NCBI GenBank assembly: GCA_030532405.1
Contig: JAUNLF010000004.1
Span: 126,342-190,341, forward strand
Direction: 5' to 3'
Length of the DNA stretch: 64,000 bases
DNA from: Actinomycetaceae bacterium
Lineage (GTDB): Bacteria > Actinomycetota > Actinomycetes > Actinomycetales > Actinomycetaceae
The position numbers were made by a program, and so were the translations under genes. How positions within the stretch are numbered: the stretch's first letter is position 1; every line of letters begins with the position of its first letter. Positions 37,808 to 61,257 of this stretch are shown here, piece by piece. The notes under the pieces were generated by a model. It did not search any database. It saw nothing but the letters and a program-made list of their open reading frames with translations, and was not told the origin of the DNA.

Positions 37808-39214
37808 GTGGGCCTCAAGCTTTTTAGTGTCAATCACCGCGATCACAACCTGCGAGCGGTCGAACAGCTGACCCCGCGCATCCACGACGACCTTGAGCGC
37901 GACCTTCGCGCCGCCCACGGCGTTCGCGGCTCCGTCGTCCTTTCCACGTGCAACCGTATTGAAATTCTTCTTGATGTCGACGAGGACGCGTCTGCGGATC
38001 GCGCCATCGAAGGCCTCTTCGACGGTTTAGCTTCCCCCGCGGACGTAACTCCCGGTGAGATCGCGCCCGGTGAGATAGCCCCCGGTGAGGCCGACAGTTC
38101 GGCCAGCGAGCCGGATGGAGTGCGGCTTTCAAGTGACGCCGCGCCGCCTGCCGCGTCGGAGGTTGGCGCGCATGCGGGCCTTGGCGGAGCATCCCAGCTC
38201 GCCCTCGTGAATCCACGCGAATTTAACGATATTGAGGCCGTGCGGCACCTGAGTTACTTGGCGTCCGGGTTGGAGTCGATGGTGGTTGGTGAGCGTGAGA
38301 TTACCGGTCAGCTTCGGCACGCGCAGCATCGGGCGCGCAGGCGTGACACGCTGTCGCCGGCAATCTCGGAGGCTTTGGACGCCGCGTTTAAGACCGCGCG
38401 CAAAGTGGAGCGCGAGACCGGGCTTTCGGGAATGGGACGCTCGGTAGCGGCGGTTGCACTGGACCACGCCGCCCAGTTTGTGGGCGACTATGCGGATGCA
38501 AACGTCACGCTGTTCGGGACGGGCTCGTACGCGGGCGCAACGGTCACGCAGCTCAAGGAGCGCGGTTGCAGGAATATCGCGGTGCACTCCGCGTCCGGAC
38601 GCGCCGAAGCGTTCGCGAGAGGGCGCGGCCTGCGCGTCGTGAAAACCGAAGACTTAGCCGAAGTGCTGGCGCAAACCGACATGATCGTCTCGGCGCGCGG
38701 AACCGGATCGCCAACGGTCACAACCAAACACGTTAAAGCGGGTGTGGACGCGCGTGAGCCGGGCCGCCCGCTGGTCGTACTGGACCTGGCGATCGTGCGC
38801 GACGTCGAACCCGAAGTCGCGAACATTCCCGGCGTCACGTTGATCGACCTGGACACCATCAGGAGCCTGGTTCCAAAACTAGAACCGGCGAAAACCGCCC
38901 GTGCCCGGCAGATCGTCGGCAGCGAAGTGGACGCCTTCGAAAAGCGAACCGCCGCCCGCGCCCTCGACCCGGTCATCATCCAAATGCGCACGCATTTAAA
39001 TAACTACATCGACCAAGAAATGGCGCACCTGCCCCAGCGCGAACTGGGACGCGAGGACGTAGAGCGCGCCCTCCACCGGCTTGCCAACAAGCTTTTACAC
39101 CACCCGACAATCGCCGCACACGCCGAGGGCGCTCGCGGAAACGCAGACGAGTTCAAAGCCGCCCTCGAACTTGTAACCGGCATGACTTTCAACGAAGAAC
39201 AGGAGCAGGATTGA
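37808..39214 (+). CDS. hemA: Glutamyl-tRNA reductase
   Basis: A 468-residue enzyme reducing glutamyl-tRNA to glutamate-1-semialdehyde. The catalytic Cys48 is in VVLSTCNRIEILL, the NADPH domain includes LFGTGSYAGATVTQL (a variant of the usual G-G-G motif), and the dimerisation helices close the protein. An insertion (about residues 76-130), including a threefold PGEIA repeat, lies in the substrate-binding domain; normal GluTRs have only a short loop there. GTG start. It overlaps the next gene by four bases, so HemA and CpfC-ChdC are co-translated. Confidence 0.92.
   Translation: MGLKLFSVNHRDHNLRAVEQLTPRIHDDLERDLRAAHGVRGSVVLSTCNRIEILLDVDEDASADRAIEGLFDGLASPADVTPGEIAPGEIAPGEADSSASEPDGVRLSSDAAPPAASEVGAHAGLGGASQLALVNPREFNDIEAVRHLSYLASGLESMVVGEREITGQLRHAQHRARRRDTLSPAISEALDAAFKTARKVERETGLSGMGRSVAAVALDHAAQFVGDYADANVTLFGTGSYAGATVTQLKERGCRNIAVHSASGRAEAFARGRGLRVVKTEDLAEVLAQTDMIVSARGTGSPTVTTKHVKAGVDAREPGRPLVVLDLAIVRDVEPEVANIPGVTLIDLDTIRSLVPKLEPAKTARARQIVGSEVDAFEKRTAARALDPVIIQMRTHLNNYIDQEMAHLPQRELGREDVERALHRLANKLLHHPTIAAHAEGARGNADEFKAALELVTGMTFNEEQEQD
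38051..38095 (+). repeat. Three 15-bp tandem repeats inside hemA
   Basis: Units at 38051, 38066 and 38081 begin CCCGGTGAG and encode the pentapeptide Pro-Gly-Glu-Ile/Ala-Ala/Asp. The period of 15 keeps the frame. Confidence 0.85.
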
Positions 39215-41145
39215 ACACCGCCCCCGACCCAATGGCGCCGTTTGACGCGATTTTGCTGGCCACGTACGGGGGCCCTGACGGCCCGCAGGCCGTGGTCCCG
39301 TTCATGCGCAACGCCACGAAGGGTAAGAACATTCCTGACGAACGCCTTGCCGAAGTGGGTACGCACTACGAGCGTTACGGCGGCGTATCGCCCATCATTG
39401 CGCGCAACAATGAGCTGGTAAACGCCCTGCAAGACTCGCTTCGCGCCGCGGGGTCTGCCACTGAAGTCTATTTGGCGTGCCGCAACTGGCACCCGTACTT
39501 TAAGGACACGCTCCGCCGCATGATTCACGCCGGCCACCGCCGCATCCTGATGATGCCGACCGCGGCGTACGCGTCGTATTCGGGATGCCGCCAGTATCGC
39601 GAAGACGTGTGGAATGCCAGGCAGGAATTAATTGACGAGGGCGTGGCGGGCGCGGATCAGGTGCAGATTGAACGCGCGCCGCTTTACTACACGGATCCGG
39701 GGTTTATCGCGGCGAACGCGGATGCGATTGAGCGCGCGTGGGATGAGCTTGCCCAGCGTGGCGCTGAGCCGCCGAAGATCCTGTTCGTCACCCACTCGAT
39801 TCCGGTGGGTATGTACGAGGCGTCGGGCCTGCCGGGTAACGATTACATCCGCCAGCATGAGGACGCGATCGACGCGGTGATGAACGCGTTGCCGGATCGC
39901 ATTCGGGGCTCGCAGTGGGAGCTCACGTACTGTTCGCGCTCCGGCCCGCCCATGGCGAAGTGGCTTGAGCCCGACATTAACGACGCTATCGAGGCGCAGG
40001 CCGCGCGCGGCGTCAAATCGGTGCTGGTCAGCCCGATTGGGTTCATTCAAGACCACATGGAGGTCGTCCACGACCTCGACACGGAAGCCGGCGAAACTGC
40101 GGCGGCAGTTGGGGTTGATTTTGTTCGCGCGGACACGGCGGGTATTGATCCGCAGTTTGTCCAGTCCTTGCGTGACATTTTATTGACGAGGGCGGACGCC
40201 GCACGGTCCGGGCTCGACCCGCGGCTTACGGGTTTGGACTGGCACGACGCGGACCCGGATCACTGCTGCATTCAACGGCCCGGCGCGGCCGTTCCAATGG
40301 CTATTTCGCAATCAAAGACGATAGAAGGAAGTAACATGACACCTGCACACACTCACGGCGCACACCCGGGCGGGCACCCCGGAGGTCACCCCGGCGGGCA
40401 TCCGGGTGGACACCCCGGCGGGCACGCGCATCCGACGGGGCATCAGGAAGGGCCGGCGGACCCGCGCGACCACAAGGTGGATCCCGATGAGGTTAACTCT
40501 CACGACCACTACTTCCTTTTCGCCGTGTTCAAGGATTTGGGCGGTTATAACGCGGGTGATGCGCAGCAGCTTGCCGAAGAGGTGCAGGAAGCTATCGCGG
40601 CCACCGGCGTGGAGGTTCGCGGGTTCTACAACACGGAGGGGTTCAAGAAGGACGCGGACTTGATGGTCTGGTTCTACGGTGACCGTGCCGACAAGGTGCA
40701 GGCCGCGTACCGCGCGTTGCGTCGCTCGAAGTTGGGCGAGTTTTTGGAGCCGCACTGGAACTCGATGGCCGCGCATATTCCGGCCGAGTTCGATGCCCGC
40801 CACCTGCCGGCGTGTATTGCGGGGGCGGCTCCGCGCGAGTGGATTGCGGTCTACCCGTTCGTGCGTTCCTTGGACTGGTACTACTTGAATCCGAACCGCC
40901 GCCGCGCGATGCTGCGTGAGCACGGCATGAATGGTTCGGACTACCTGGACGTGAAGGTGTCCACGCTTGCCGGCTTCGCCCTGGGGGACTACGAGTGGAT
41001 GCTCGCCCTTGAGGCCGACACTCTTGACCGCGTCATGGGCGTGCTGCGCAAACAGCGCGAAGTTGAAGCGCGCGTTTACACGAGGGTGGACACGCCGTTC
41101 TACACCGGCCAGCGCATGGAACTGGCCGACTGGATCGCACGCTAG
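39211..41145 (+). CDS. cpfC-chdC: Coproporphyrin ferrochelatase fused to coproheme decarboxylase
   Basis: A 644-residue fusion completing heme b synthesis. Residues 1 to about 365 are the ferrochelatase: LLATYGGPDGPQAVVPF, PTAAYASYSGCRQYRED, FVTHSIP, SPIGFIQDHMEVVHDLD, and CC of DPDHCCIQRP; with the earlier Cys these fit the [2Fe-2S] ligands of actinobacterial enzymes. A His/Gly linker with five HPGG units (385-404) joins ChdC (about 415-644), which has YPFVRSLDWYYL and the proximal-histidine type block MLREHGMNGS. TTG start overlaps hemA. A GAAGGA SD and ATG at 40336 could also make free ChdC. Confidence 0.9.
   Translation: MNTAPDPMAPFDAILLATYGGPDGPQAVVPFMRNATKGKNIPDERLAEVGTHYERYGGVSPIIARNNELVNALQDSLRAAGSATEVYLACRNWHPYFKDTLRRMIHAGHRRILMMPTAAYASYSGCRQYREDVWNARQELIDEGVAGADQVQIERAPLYYTDPGFIAANADAIERAWDELAQRGAEPPKILFVTHSIPVGMYEASGLPGNDYIRQHEDAIDAVMNALPDRIRGSQWELTYCSRSGPPMAKWLEPDINDAIEAQAARGVKSVLVSPIGFIQDHMEVVHDLDTEAGETAAAVGVDFVRADTAGIDPQFVQSLRDILLTRADAARSGLDPRLTGLDWHDADPDHCCIQRPGAAVPMAISQSKTIEGSNMTPAHTHGAHPGGHPGGHPGGHPGGHPGGHAHPTGHQEGPADPRDHKVDPDEVNSHDHYFLFAVFKDLGGYNAGDAQQLAEEVQEAIAATGVEVRGFYNTEGFKKDADLMVWFYGDRADKVQAAYRALRRSKLGEFLEPHWNSMAAHIPAEFDARHLPACIAGAAPREWIAVYPFVRSLDWYYLNPNRRRAMLREHGMNGSDYLDVKVSTLAGFALGDYEWMLALEADTLDRVMGVLRKQREVEARVYTRVDTPFYTGQRMELADWIAR
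40336..40338 (+). promoter_or_regulatory. Internal start with SD at the ChdC junction
   Basis: GAAGGA lies six bases before this in-frame ATG at the boundary between the two domains. It would give a 269-residue ChdC carrying the His/Gly repeat at its N-terminus. It looks like the original chdC start retained after loss of the cpfC stop codon. Confidence 0.5.
40363..40422 (+). repeat. Five 12-bp units encoding HPGG
   Basis: The units encode His-Pro-Gly-Gly five times, with silent differences between copies. Neighbouring residues add more histidines (HTHGA before, HAHPTGH after). The stretch could bind iron or another metal. Confidence 0.9.
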
Positions 41146-41147
41146 GC

Positions 41148-41239
41148 CTGCAAAGCCAGGCCTAGAAGGTCTGCAATCTCCGGGTTGTAAGGTCTGCAAA
41201 GTCCGGCCTGAAACCTCTGCAATCTCCCGGTTGGTGCTA
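41148..41239. repeat. Left array of four 23-bp repeats flanking the ATPase gene
   Basis: Units start at 41148, 41171, 41194 and 41217 and alternate A-B-A-B. A begins CTGCAAAG and has the core CCGGCCT; B begins CTGCAATC and has CCGGGTTG. The period is exactly 23. Over 64 bases (41148-41211) the array matches 42516-42579 with four differences. Confidence 0.95.
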
Positions 41240-41250
41240 GAATTGCCTTA
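41238..41250 (+). promoter_or_regulatory. Probable leaderless promoter of the ATPase gene
   Basis: TAGAAT at 41238-41243 lies six bases before the ATG at 41250, the spacing of leaderless actinobacterial mRNAs. The expected -35 position falls in the last repeat unit, so a protein bound to the array could control it. Confidence 0.45.
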
Positions 41251-42512
41251 TGAAATCAGACAATTCGCGCAGCCGGGAGTATCGCCCTCGAGTTATTGAT
41301 TCTTCGGTTCAAGAACTGCTACAGATTTCTGGGGCGGTAGTGCTTGAAGGTCCGCGTGCATGCGGCAAGACGAGTACCGCGTTGGAGCACGCGAATACTG
41401 CTCATTTCTTGGACGCAAGAGAAACTCGCGCGCTCGCGGAGCTGTCTCCGGGCATGCTTTTGGAGGGCGAACCGCCGATCCTGCTCGACGAATGGCAGTT
41501 AGACCCGCCGCTGTGGAACGAGGTCCGCCGTTCCGTTGATGTTTCAGGCGCGCCCGGGCGGTTCATCCTCACCGGGTCTTCGGTGCCTTCGGATGACGCT
41601 ACTCGCCATACGGGGGCGGGCCGGTTTGTGCGTTTGCGTATGAGGACGATGACTTGGCAGGAACGCGGTGTGGGTCATCCAGGTGTTTCGCTGCGGGCTC
41701 TAAGTGAGGGAGAACCGGTGGCGCCCTCGCAAATCAAAATGGAATACCCGCAAGTGGTGAACGCCCTTTTGACGTCGGGCTTTCCCGCACAAATTGGGTT
41801 TGAACCCAAGGCGGCGCGGCGCCTGTTGGACGCGTATCTGACGGAGATCACGCACACCGATGTTTTCCGCCTGGAGCAGCTAAACACCGAGCCGCGCGTG
41901 ATCGAACACTTGATTAGGTCTCTGGCTAGGAACACGGCGTCGGAAGTCACGTATGAAACCTTGGCCAAAGACGCGCGCGTCCTGGCACCGACGTTGAGCG
42001 CCGAAACGGTTTCCAAGATCGTTGCACTACTTGAACGCCTATTCGTCGTGGAACGAGTTCCCGCATTTTCTGCGAGACTACGCTCCAAAGCGAGACTTCG
42101 AAGGTCACCAAAATTCCACTTAATGGATCCGGCGTTCGCGGCGGCGGCATTGAGGGCGACGTCGGAGGATCTGGCGAAGGACCCGCTCACTGCTGGATTC
42201 TTGTTCGAATCCGCCGTTATCCACGACCTGCTTGTTTACGCGCAGGCCCTGGGGGCCGAGGTGTGGCATTACCGGAATTCGTACGGGCAAGAAATAGACG
42301 CGATCCTGACCTTCCCGGACGGTGGATGGGCGGGCGTCGAGATCAAACTGGGAGCATCGCAAATTGCGTCCGGCGCTAAGTCACTGCGGGATGCGGCTGC
42401 TTCAATTGACGCGGGGGAACCCAAGTTCTTGGCCGTAATCACGGGCACGGGCATCACCGCGGACCTTGGGGACGGCATGGTCACATTCCCGCTGGCCGCC
42501 CTCGGGGCGTGA
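41250..42512 (+). CDS. AAA_14-type ATPase with DUF4143 nuclease-like domain
   Basis: A 420-residue protein of the large, poorly understood AAA_14/DUF4143 family. Walker A GPRACGKT is at 34-41, Walker B ILLDEW at 77-82 and sensor ILTGSS at 106-111. The C-terminal DUF4143 part has FLFESAVIHDLL, GQEIDAIL and WAGVEIKLG, which give the Glu, Asp and Glu-x-Lys pattern of a PD-(D/E)XK nuclease fold. It probably binds and cuts or remodels nucleic acid (inference). It is bracketed by near-identical repeat arrays and disrupts the path between the heme genes and envelope genes. Relatives are often patchily distributed. Confidence 0.8.
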   Translation: MKSDNSRSREYRPRVIDSSVQELLQISGAVVLEGPRACGKTSTALEHANTAHFLDARETRALAELSPGMLLEGEPPILLDEWQLDPPLWNEVRRSVDVSGAPGRFILTGSSVPSDDATRHTGAGRFVRLRMRTMTWQERGVGHPGVSLRALSEGEPVAPSQIKMEYPQVVNALLTSGFPAQIGFEPKAARRLLDAYLTEITHTDVFRLEQLNTEPRVIEHLIRSLARNTASEVTYETLAKDARVLAPTLSAETVSKIVALLERLFVVERVPAFSARLRSKARLRRSPKFHLMDPAFAAAALRATSEDLAKDPLTAGFLFESAVIHDLLVYAQALGAEVWHYRNSYGQEIDAILTFPDGGWAGVEIKLGASQIASGAKSLRDAAASIDAGEPKFLAVITGTGITADLGDGMVTFPLAALGA

Positions 42513-42515
42513 ACT

Positions 42516-42607
42516 CTGCAAAGTCCGGCCTAGAAGGTCTGCAATCTCCGGGTTGTAAGGCCTGCAAAGTCCGGCCCGACAGCTCTGCAAAGTTCGGTCC
42601 GAGGTCT
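42516..42607. repeat. Right array of four 23-bp repeats flanking the ATPase gene
   Basis: Units start at 42516, 42539, 42562 and 42585 in the order A-B-A-A. The first array unit begins three bases after the ATPase stop. A 34-base block (42527-42560) is identical to 41159-41192. Confidence 0.95.
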
Positions 42608-42646: not shown

Positions 42647-44443
42647 GTGAAAGAGCCCCAGAAGATTACGCCGCATGACGGGGTAGATGACCAGTCGGAT
42701 AAGACTGCGCGCGAGCTTGCACTCGGCGGGTTTCTTTCACGGCGCACACCCGCATCCACGACCGGTATCGTGGCGGCGGCAATCATGTACGTGGTCTCCA
42801 TGTCACCCTCGCTGCTGCCAAGAACGTGGTGGTGGCAAGGGGTTGCAACGGGCATATTGATTGCTCTGGCTTACGGTGTTGGCTCGCTGGTGGGGTGGTT
42901 GGCGTCCTCGATATGGAATGCTGCGGAGCTGAAAGTCTCCGCGAACCACACGTGGGTCAAGTGGAGTACCCGCGCGCTTTACGCCGCCGCATTCATTTGG
43001 GTTGTGTGGTTCTTGGTGCGCTCCTACGCGTCTAATAATCGCGCGGCGGAAGTCATGGGAATGCAACGCATGACAGTGTTCGACTACCTGCTGGCCACGG
43101 TTACGGCACTCGTGATAGCAACGGCGATAACCGGCATAGCGGTAGCGATCCGCGGCCTGTGGCGCATTGTTAGACGACACGCCCGTAAAGTGATGCCCGA
43201 CTGGATTGCGGGGCTTGCCGCAACCGTCGTCGTCCTCGTCACCGTTGTCTTCGTAACTTCTGACGTCCTGTTTGAAAAAGGCATGGAGTTTGCCTACGGG
43301 AAGTTTGCCGAACAAGATCGCGCTGAAGTTCCCGGCGTGGAGCAACCCAAGGAGGTCGAGAGGTCCGGTTCGACCATCTCTTTTGAACAGTGGGAAAACA
43401 TTGGCGTGCAGGGAAAGCAATTCCTCGCCTCTGGCCCGCGGGCCGAAAAAATCAGCGAGGTTACCGGCAAGCCCGCTAAGGAACCCATCCGCATTTACGC
43501 GGGCCTGACCGAGGGGCGCACACTTGAGGATGTCGCCGAGGTCGTGGTTGACGAGATTCGGCGTACCGGAGCGTTTGAGCGTTCCGTCCTCGTCCTCACA
43601 ACTGCGACCGGCACGGGTTGGATTGAGGAATGGGGCGTGCAGCCCGTCGAATATTTAACGCGCGGGGATTGCGCTACGGTCACGATGCAGTATTCGTACG
43701 TGCCTTCTGCGGTCGCGTTCCTGCGCGAGTTCGATAAGCCCGCCCAGGCCGGCAAGGTTCTGTACGACGCCGTCATGGCTGAACTTGAAAAGCGTCCCGA
43801 GGACGATCGGCCCGCCGTTTACCTGCACGGCGTGTCGCTTGGTGCGTTCGGGTCGCAGGCCATGTTTGAGGACGAGACTCAGCTGCTTGAAGGTGTTGAT
43901 GGTGCGGTGTGGGCGGGAACTCCGAATACGACTCCGCTTTGGAAGAAGCTGACGGCTGGGCGGCACGCGGGTAGCCCTGAGATCGCCCCGGTTGTGAACA
44001 GTGGCCATAACGTGCGGTTTGCTACGAAGCCGGAGGATTTGCAGACTGACATTTACGGGCGGGCTCTGCCGACTTGGCAGTTCCCGCGGGTCGCTTACTT
44101 GCAGCACGCGACGGATCCGGTGGTTTGGTGGGAGCCTTCTCTGATTTCGCAGCAGCCGGACTGGTTGCAAGAACCGGCCCAGGCTGATTTGAATCCGGAT
44201 ATGCAGTGGACCAGGGGCGCGACTTTCATTCAGGTGAGCGCCGACCTGCCTATCGCGGGTCTTGCCGCCGACGGGCACGGTCACACGTACCACCGTGAAC
44301 TGATCCCAATTTGGATGGATGTGCTCGGCTTGCGGGGCCCAACTGTTCCGGGAAATGCTTATAAGTCTGCGGACGGTTCGTGGGTAGATCAGCAGGTGAT
44401 TGACCGGATTGTTCGCGAGATTGAGATCGAACTTTACGAATAA
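42647..44443 (+). CDS. Membrane-anchored alpha/beta hydrolase (Abhydrolase_9 type)
   Basis: A 598-residue protein with four or five N-terminal helices (about residues 40-215) containing SPSLLPRTWWWQGVATGI, followed by a large hydrolase domain predicted on one face of the membrane. Seen: VLTTATGTGWIEEWGVQP, nucleophile elbow LHGVSLGAFGS, GAVWAGTPN, LQHATDPVVWW and the final GHGHTYH histidine region. This is the actinobacterial DUF/Abhydrolase_9 family, whose substrate is unknown but which is thought to act in the envelope. GTG start after GAGGA, 40 bases after the repeat array. Confidence 0.8.
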   Translation: MKEPQKITPHDGVDDQSDKTARELALGGFLSRRTPASTTGIVAAAIMYVVSMSPSLLPRTWWWQGVATGILIALAYGVGSLVGWLASSIWNAAELKVSANHTWVKWSTRALYAAAFIWVVWFLVRSYASNNRAAEVMGMQRMTVFDYLLATVTALVIATAITGIAVAIRGLWRIVRRHARKVMPDWIAGLAATVVVLVTVVFVTSDVLFEKGMEFAYGKFAEQDRAEVPGVEQPKEVERSGSTISFEQWENIGVQGKQFLASGPRAEKISEVTGKPAKEPIRIYAGLTEGRTLEDVAEVVVDEIRRTGAFERSVLVLTTATGTGWIEEWGVQPVEYLTRGDCATVTMQYSYVPSAVAFLREFDKPAQAGKVLYDAVMAELEKRPEDDRPAVYLHGVSLGAFGSQAMFEDETQLLEGVDGAVWAGTPNTTPLWKKLTAGRHAGSPEIAPVVNSGHNVRFATKPEDLQTDIYGRALPTWQFPRVAYLQHATDPVVWWEPSLISQQPDWLQEPAQADLNPDMQWTRGATFIQVSADLPIAGLAADGHGHTYHRELIPIWMDVLGLRGPTVPGNAYKSADGSWVDQQVIDRIVREIEIELYE

Positions 44444-60918: not shown

Positions 60919-61257
60919 AGCCCAATCGTTACACATCAACGCCCACCAAGTCGCGCAGTTCCACCACTCGACTTTTGCGCCGCCCAGCTCGGACCGCCCG
61001 ACCTCCTCTATCCCACCGGGGGCCACCTTGGTCGGCGTGGGGGCCGCCTTGGTCCGTCATGTTCCGCCCTGGTCGGCGTGGGGGCCACCTTGGTCCGCGT
61101 GGGGGCCGCGTTGGTCCGTCGCGTCCTATTTTGGTCCATCGCGTTCCGCCTTGGACCATCACGTCCCACCCTGGTCCACCGAATCCCACCGGGTCTACGT
61201 AATCCACAGGGGCTGGAAGTGGCCGGGATTCACAGCCCCGCCCTCGTGGATGAAATG
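60919..61257. other. Divergent region with a tandem repeat array
   Basis: This gap separates purB from the WXG100 gene. Most of it is the 20-bp repeat array (61018-61198). Frames through it on either strand are repetitive, Pro/Gly/Trp-rich and lack start signals. No clear promoter is seen; the left 90 bases next to purB should carry the purB promoter. Confidence 0.5.
61018..61198. repeat. Nine degenerate ~20-bp tandem repeats
   Basis: Units follow the approximate consensus GGGGCCRCCTTGGTCCRYCR, with GGGGGCC-type units on the left and GTTCC/GTCCC-type units on the right, so the array decays rightward. The period is 19-22 bases. Confidence 0.8.

Follow-up and report, generated by a model that had tools for sequence, protein, structure and literature searches.

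Direct-repeat arrays upstream of AAA_14/DUF4143 ATPase-nuclease genes are best explained as binding arrays of the neighbouring protein

The window analysed here is a 64,000-nucleotide stretch of contig JAUNLF010000004.1 from an Actinomycetaceae bacterium; the features of the locus described below lie on its + strand. The gene of interest (41250..42512; ATG at 41250, stop codon at 42510-42512) encodes a 420-aa protein in which Pfam recognizes AAA_14 (E 9.8e-11) and DUF4143 (E 1.9e-31), both above the cut-offs, and which the PADLOC model PDC-S01 matches over residues 10-418 (E 4.1e-68). It is preceded by a left array of four 23-bp units in the order A-B-A-B (41148..41239) and followed by a right array of four 23-bp units of the same family in the order A-B-A-A (42516..42607). 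Both arrays are apparent on reading the sequence and both are detected by Tandem Repeats Finder. The CTGCAA cores advance in exact 23-bp steps, at 41148, 41171, 41194 and 41217 on the left and at 42516, 42539, 42562 and 42585 on the right. The initial annotation had described this arrangement, the likeness of the two arrays over 64 bases with four differences and the close spacing of the right array to the stop codon, and all three are seen directly in the sequence. The occurrence of the array is far from chance.

The upstream neighbour (39211..41145) is a fusion of ferrochelatase with the chlorite dismutase-like HemQ, and its stop codon abuts the stretch that appears to have been gained (see below). 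The downstream neighbour encodes an Abhydrolase_9 protein (42647..44443) and has kept a promoter-like sequence of its own in the interval that separates the right array from its start codon. The ferrochelatase-HemQ fusion is encoded in one frame, the two parts are joined in the congeners L057 and L061 too, and the linker (40362-40425) is itself a tandem repeat encoding HPGG motifs. Elsewhere in the window, two adjoining tandem repeats with periods of 21 and 20 bp lie at 61018-61190.

The AAA_14 ATPase domain spans residues 29-138 (41334..41663) and carries a Walker A motif with G39, K40 and T41 and a Walker B motif with D80 and E81. In an alignment of 127 relatives, G39 and K40 are invariant (127/127), as is E81 (127/127), and D80 is found in 126/127. 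The C-terminal domain had been suspected of carrying a PD-(D/E)XK-like pattern; the residues concerned (E320, D350, E364 and K366; 42207..42347) are real and conserved across the relatives, at 126/127, 126/127, 125/127 and 123/127, respectively. Both sets are intact in the window protein. Between the ATPase and the nuclease, at about residues 205-300 (41862..42149), a winged helix-turn-helix is possible; the matches to HTH families are weak and sub-threshold, the best being FUR in five of 12 aligned members and TrmB in three. A search for relatives of solved structure returned none that was convincing, and NCBIfam gave no family for three proteins. AAA_14/DUF4143 proteins carry the label COG1373.

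According to the accessible part of PMC12988326, PDC-S01 is a single-gene combination of an ATPase with a PD-(D/E)XK domain found in bacteria and archaea (29,494 bacterial and 9,986 archaeal systems), and ranks fourth in frequency among prokaryotic defences; we treat it as a candidate anti-phage defence system. The window protein agrees with it in the full-length profile match, in the pairing of ATPase and PD-(D/E)XK domains and in being a single gene. What the accessible parts of the two reports (PMC12988326, PMC13356809) give is counts, phylogeny and domains, with no DNA element; the array is added here. Within its accessible text, PMC12988326 names neither a target nor a regulation of PDC-S01 and contains no mention of tandem, promoter, palindrom- or autoregulat- terms.

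We searched for the window's unit elsewhere, using patterns that would miss strongly diverged units. A 14-base pattern (up to two mismatches) gave 57 matches in the genome itself, clustered only at the window locus, and a 16-base pattern (up to one mismatch) gave clusters in 213 genomes of the family only at the window locus and before a gene whose protein is 55% identical. Clustered orphan arrays of this unit were thus found neither in its own genome nor in the 213 family genomes, so the repeats are not scattered about without such a gene. Family relatives at other sites carry arrays of different units: a congener (52% identity) and a Collinsella genome (40%) have 23-bp arrays, and a second family copy in the window's own genome (22-27% identity) has 22-bp units. 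Downstream of the Collinsella gene (L022, 4299-4362) there is also a 29-bp repeat unlike the array upstream of that gene.

The survey of the family started from 151 hits; after removal of partial genes, duplicates and genes with less than 300 bp upstream, 127 unique full-length genes remained, mostly from 200 genomes of the window's family, in 108 of which the domain is present. The loci are mostly the best-scoring matches per search rather than a random draw. Arrays were called by one self-offset score with a threshold of 18 in the region from -350 to +60. A direct-repeat array lies near the start codon in 89/127 relatives, compared with 6/99 other genes of the same loci. Its period is 23 bp in 55 cases and 22 bp in 23 (together 78 of the 89), 32 bp in six, 33 bp in two and 31, 21 and 19 bp in one each; two of the 89 are unconvincing, namely L027 (period 19) and L088 (a simple repeat). 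Among the 38 genes below the threshold, the best period between 16 and 39 is 22 or 23 in 19. Fic genes of the family genomes, taken as an accessory-gene control, exceeded the threshold in 2/30 cases, none with a period of 22 or 23. Sister ATPase-nucleases with DUF234 did so at one of six usable loci, an AT-rich simple repeat, and are too rare to judge. In a second control set, scores of at least 18 were more frequent than the 6/99 of the first: 18/194 in the window's family, 3/37 in Bacteroidota and 2/16 in Methanobacteria, with five, two and one, respectively, at a period of 22 or 23; the exclusion zone around family genes was narrower in this set, and some of these may be the arrays of a neighbouring family gene.

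With the threshold unchanged, a new set from Methanobacteria showed arrays in 22/23 genes, 21 of them with a period of 23 (shuffled sequences, 2/115), and a Bacteroidota set showed direct arrays in 5/27 (shuffled, 0/135). All four IMG/VR contigs, representing three distinct proteins, carry 23-bp arrays. Three of the eight plasmid and phage records examined have arrays (from Bacteroides, Collinsella and a faecal phage contig), and the other five, plasmid copies of which two are from Agrobacterium and one each from Rhizobium, Rhodoferax and Thermus, showed neither array nor palindrome. The Thermus DUF4143 gene TT_P0211 is described in the accessible part of PMC4406477 as induced 6.6-fold only when Argonaute and plasmid are both present; since it has no array, we do not take this induction as support. 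The expectation that the repeats accompany DUF4143-type genes thus holds for upstream arrays as such, which stand before most surveyed relatives, but not for a common unit, which differs between genes. Nor is the layout special to this locus: in bacteria and archaea alike, upstream arrays are a property of the gene family and not of this one site.

The spacing of the units is strict. When the core only was matched and the spacing left free, 226/235 pairs of neighbouring units were exactly one period apart and three were off by 1-3 bp. Arrays contain three to seven units (75 arrays), more in some Methanobacteria and about nine in L241. Identity between units is 0.87 in the core and 0.56 in the spacer, a contrast that is partly circular as the core was chosen as the best-conserved stretch. 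The arrays mostly end 10-80 bp 5' of the projected start, where their sites overlap or abut predicted promoters. In the window's family, 42/65 array loci have a TAnnnT motif five to eight (nearly always six) bases 5' of a start codon that is close to the projected one; a similar count gave 24/327 in control ORFs, for which the choice of start codon was not exactly that applied to the array loci. Leaderless transcripts are common in actinobacteria. In the window, a -10-like TAGAAT (41238..41243) ends six bases 5' of the ATG, and a leaderless transcript is predicted for the gene on that ground. The left array would accordingly cover the -35 region of the promoter and lie outside the gene's own transcript. 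The promoter had been said to abut the left array: the TAGAAT is indeed at 41238, but the fourth unit, which runs to 41239, overlaps the -10 by two bases.

This position bears on the possibility that the array is transcribed into an RNA that keeps the protein in check, in the manner of type III toxin-antitoxin modules. The layout, with a tandem array directly 5' of a nuclease gene, resembles that of type III modules. However, at the 42 loci just mentioned the TAnnnT follows the array, usually six bases before the start, so that the predicted transcript does not contain the array; in the window, array and gene lie too close together for a terminator to fit between them; and in other branches of the family a palindrome takes the array's place. 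The protein differs as well, being an ATPase with a PD-(D/E)XK domain and not an endoribonuclease of the ToxN type. An RNA antidote is in our view very unlikely, what disfavours it being the predicted promoters only.

The palindrome is about 35-40 bp long and lies near the start codon in 23/27 Bacteroidota genes. In the first survey it is present in 14/40 array-less genes versus 1/78 genes with 22- or 23-bp arrays. The threshold for these counts was picked in the script that made them. Real control genes reach this threshold as well (5/37 in Bacteroidota, 5/16 in Methanobacteria, 10/194 in the window's family), and support for the palindrome is therefore good in Bacteroidota but weaker in the other groups. 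In the pooled set, 150/180 genes have an array or a palindrome: 80 have direct 23-bp repeats, 24 direct 22-bp repeats, 39 a palindrome and seven repeats of 31-34 bp, with the remaining 30 having none of these. The type of element follows the protein tree, on which the distinction between direct and inverted requires five changes (34.6 when shuffled) and that of period 23 requires 11 (41.4 when shuffled); period 22 clusters as period 23 does, and the 31-33 bp class does not. At L083, a DUF4143 gene is preceded (669-935) by some eight units of 32 bp; several of these come close to being palindromes, and they are perhaps an intermediate between the array and palindrome types.

The units themselves are very different from gene to gene. 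None of 18 within-genome pairs shares a unit, all 18 being distant paralogues (at most 48% identity), and with no unit in common a single host factor is unlikely to explain the arrays. Closer relatives behave differently. Arrays match while their flanks are unrelated in 5/5 pairs at 80-90% protein identity and 16/17 at 70-80% (the pairs are not independent, as they involve nine and 17 genes, respectively), in 8/21 at 60-70%, in 8/49 at 50-60% and in 2/2632 at 20-50%, the last band omitting 36 pairs under 20%. The nearest array-bearing relatives of the window gene, L150, L012 and L151 (55, 52 and 51% identity), all have CTGCAAA units. L017, from a Methanobrevibacter MAG, and L019, from a Bacteroidota MAG, are 75% identical as proteins; they share 98 bp of array at 75.5% and have unrelated flanks. 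Units very similar to those of L017 recur in two further genomes of its class (L235, L236), which makes a mis-binned contig unlikely as the whole explanation. As to the part of the protein that units follow, their similarity across 115 pairs at 50-90% identity correlates best with residues 195-300 (rho 0.60; nuclease 0.47, ATPase 0.38), whereas across 703 pairs at 40-90% the nuclease leads (0.37, with 0.27 for residues 195-300 and 0.23 for the ATPase). The genome of L018 (G201) holds 31 DUF4143 matches in 2.8 Mb and is suited to asking whether many copies per cell keep separate units.

Units that diverge fast along with the protein would also be expected if the array tagged a DNA target, the nuclease loading on matching arrays and acting on the other elements that carry them, so that copies exclude one another, or idling on its own array until other DNA titrates it away. 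The absence of shared units among paralogues of one genome points the same way, and so does the triad D350/E364/K366, which is equally conserved in genes with arrays (86/89) and without (37/38). Against it, a blastn search with the window's left array (E up to 1) matched none of 50,697 phage or 72,556 plasmid records; cutting at its own promoter would require some further control; and in-genome pairs as distant as the 18 rarely share units anyway. We consider such targeting improbable.

The site of the cassette can be compared with two congeners, L057 and L061, in which the ferrochelatase-HemQ and Abhydrolase_9 genes adjoin and the array-gene-array cassette is missing. The distance from the ferrochelatase-HemQ stop to the Abhydrolase_9 start is 42 bp in L057, and about 124 bp separate the aligned ends of the two genes in L061; neither empty site holds a repeat array. 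In the window, 39 bp remain 3' of the right array, and the promoter-like sequence of the Abhydrolase_9 gene is retained in them. The Abhydrolase gene is present in seven congeners, five of which have no hemHQ neighbour in the stretch examined and are hence uninformative. Given the two empty sites, array, gene and array were apparently gained whole in the window, or else lost in both L057 and L061. The proposal of a self-contained cassette is borne out to that extent, while the fused single array expected in strains lacking the gene does not exist at either empty site.

The bracketing of the gene by two arrays does not extend to the family. Scanning 75 loci with each gene's own unit yielded eight extra matches in all (1.7 expected), and only two sets of these are units one period apart: those downstream of the window gene and those upstream of L123. 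In the latter, two more units of its own array lie roughly 1.18 and 1.16 kb 5' of the start with another gene between; they may be left over from an earlier position or mark a second site of regulation. Thirteen genes have a downstream score of at least 15, and only in the window is the downstream array one of the gene's own unit; at L150 and L119 a second family gene is located there, and in the remaining ten the periods range from 18 to 40. Behind the window's right array there is no second family gene. Two-sided flanking as a general rule is thus disfavoured by test (one of 75 loci, the window), and the upstream array is the rule.

These data also speak to the reading in which the arrays serve for recombination or integration and make the gene a mobile single-gene element, with the window showing the integrated form. 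The cassette is missing whole from the same site in L057 and L061, the two arrays are near copies in like order, array and gene share a history where their flanks do not, and L123 has two further cognate units 1.1-1.2 kb upstream. On the other side stand the restriction of an own-unit downstream array to the window among 75 loci, the lack of any array at the two empty sites, the lack of clustered orphan arrays in the 213 genomes and the Pfam result for the window gene, in which no integrase-like domain appears. We consider this reading improbable. The right array, with the unit family and the A-B-A order of the left one, is probably a local duplicate, and we take it as a remnant either of tandem duplication of the unit at the site or of an integration event that used the array.

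The genes of DNA-binding plasmid initiators likewise adjoin direct repeats of some 22 bp, the iterons, and by analogy the protein here could be the AAA+ initiator of a small replicon and the array its origin. Here, however, the protein has a PD-(D/E)XK domain, the window copy is a single gene in a chromosomal-looking contig of 240 kb, and the seven plasmids examined are all 27 kb or larger. We hold this reading to be very improbable.

From the position at the promoter, the exact spacing, the differences between paralogues and the joint inheritance, transfer and divergence of unit and protein, the element is best explained as a binding array of the neighbouring protein. We consider it probable that the array is a cis-acting docking site of the adjoining AAA+ ATPase/PD-(D/E)XK nuclease, inherited and horizontally transferred with the gene. 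That the repeats may be binding sites of the encoded protein was raised in the initial annotation; co-inheritance, position and specificity make this plausible, and the binding itself we infer. Several protomers would line up along units at an exact spacing of 22 or 23 bp or, elsewhere in the family, along a palindrome or units of 31-34 bp, contacting DNA through the probable winged helix. The bound array would cover the -35 region, and transcription from this promoter would begin at the start codon or close to it. Since the array overlaps the gene's own promoter, autoregulation would be the simplest role: the ATPase-nuclease would most likely control its own expression, in the majority of cases as a repressor, with the nuclease presumably acting on invading DNA.

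A precedent for such self-repression is RptR, a defence-island regulator which, as described in the accessible part of PMC12255303, shuts down its own promoter through three direct repeats that it binds there. RptR is a separate repressor and its repeats are 9 bp long around a 6-bp palindrome, whereas here there is the ATPase-nuclease alone with units of 22 or 23 bp.

Several observations do not sit easily with a docking array. No element was found in 30 of the 180 pooled genes, the five plasmid copies included; only five of the 27 Bacteroidota genes have direct arrays; and direct arrays are commoner in the second control set than in the first. Three to seven or more units exceed what a simple repressor needs, and the downstream array of the window is unexplained as an operator of that gene. 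In the 703 pairs at 40-90% identity, the nuclease region tracks the units better than residues 195-300 do. A further reading, to which we give a small but real chance, is that the array serves more than autoregulation: a filament of the AAA+ protein on it would distinguish own from rival DNA, and each copy would exclude or destroy elements with a matching array, or copy itself through it. If this were true, members of one of the most abundant unexplained gene families of bacteria and archaea would hold, in legible form, the DNA code recognized by their ATPase-nuclease.

As far as our searches reach, the element is undescribed in print: in the accessible literature on DUF4143, COG1373, PDC-S01, 22/23-bp repeats with ATPases and iterons or autoregulation, bioRxiv being outside the scope, repeats near the gene are not described. 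Being specific to its gene, and moving and changing along with the protein, the array shows the sequence that each protein probably recognizes, and short synthetic DNA would allow binding, expression and cutting to be tested jointly. Its type is clustered along the protein tree, and it is present in bacteria as well as archaea, which gives a means to sort the family. Being probably the protein's own binding sites, the upstream arrays offer a first way into the question of what this common candidate defence gene recognizes.
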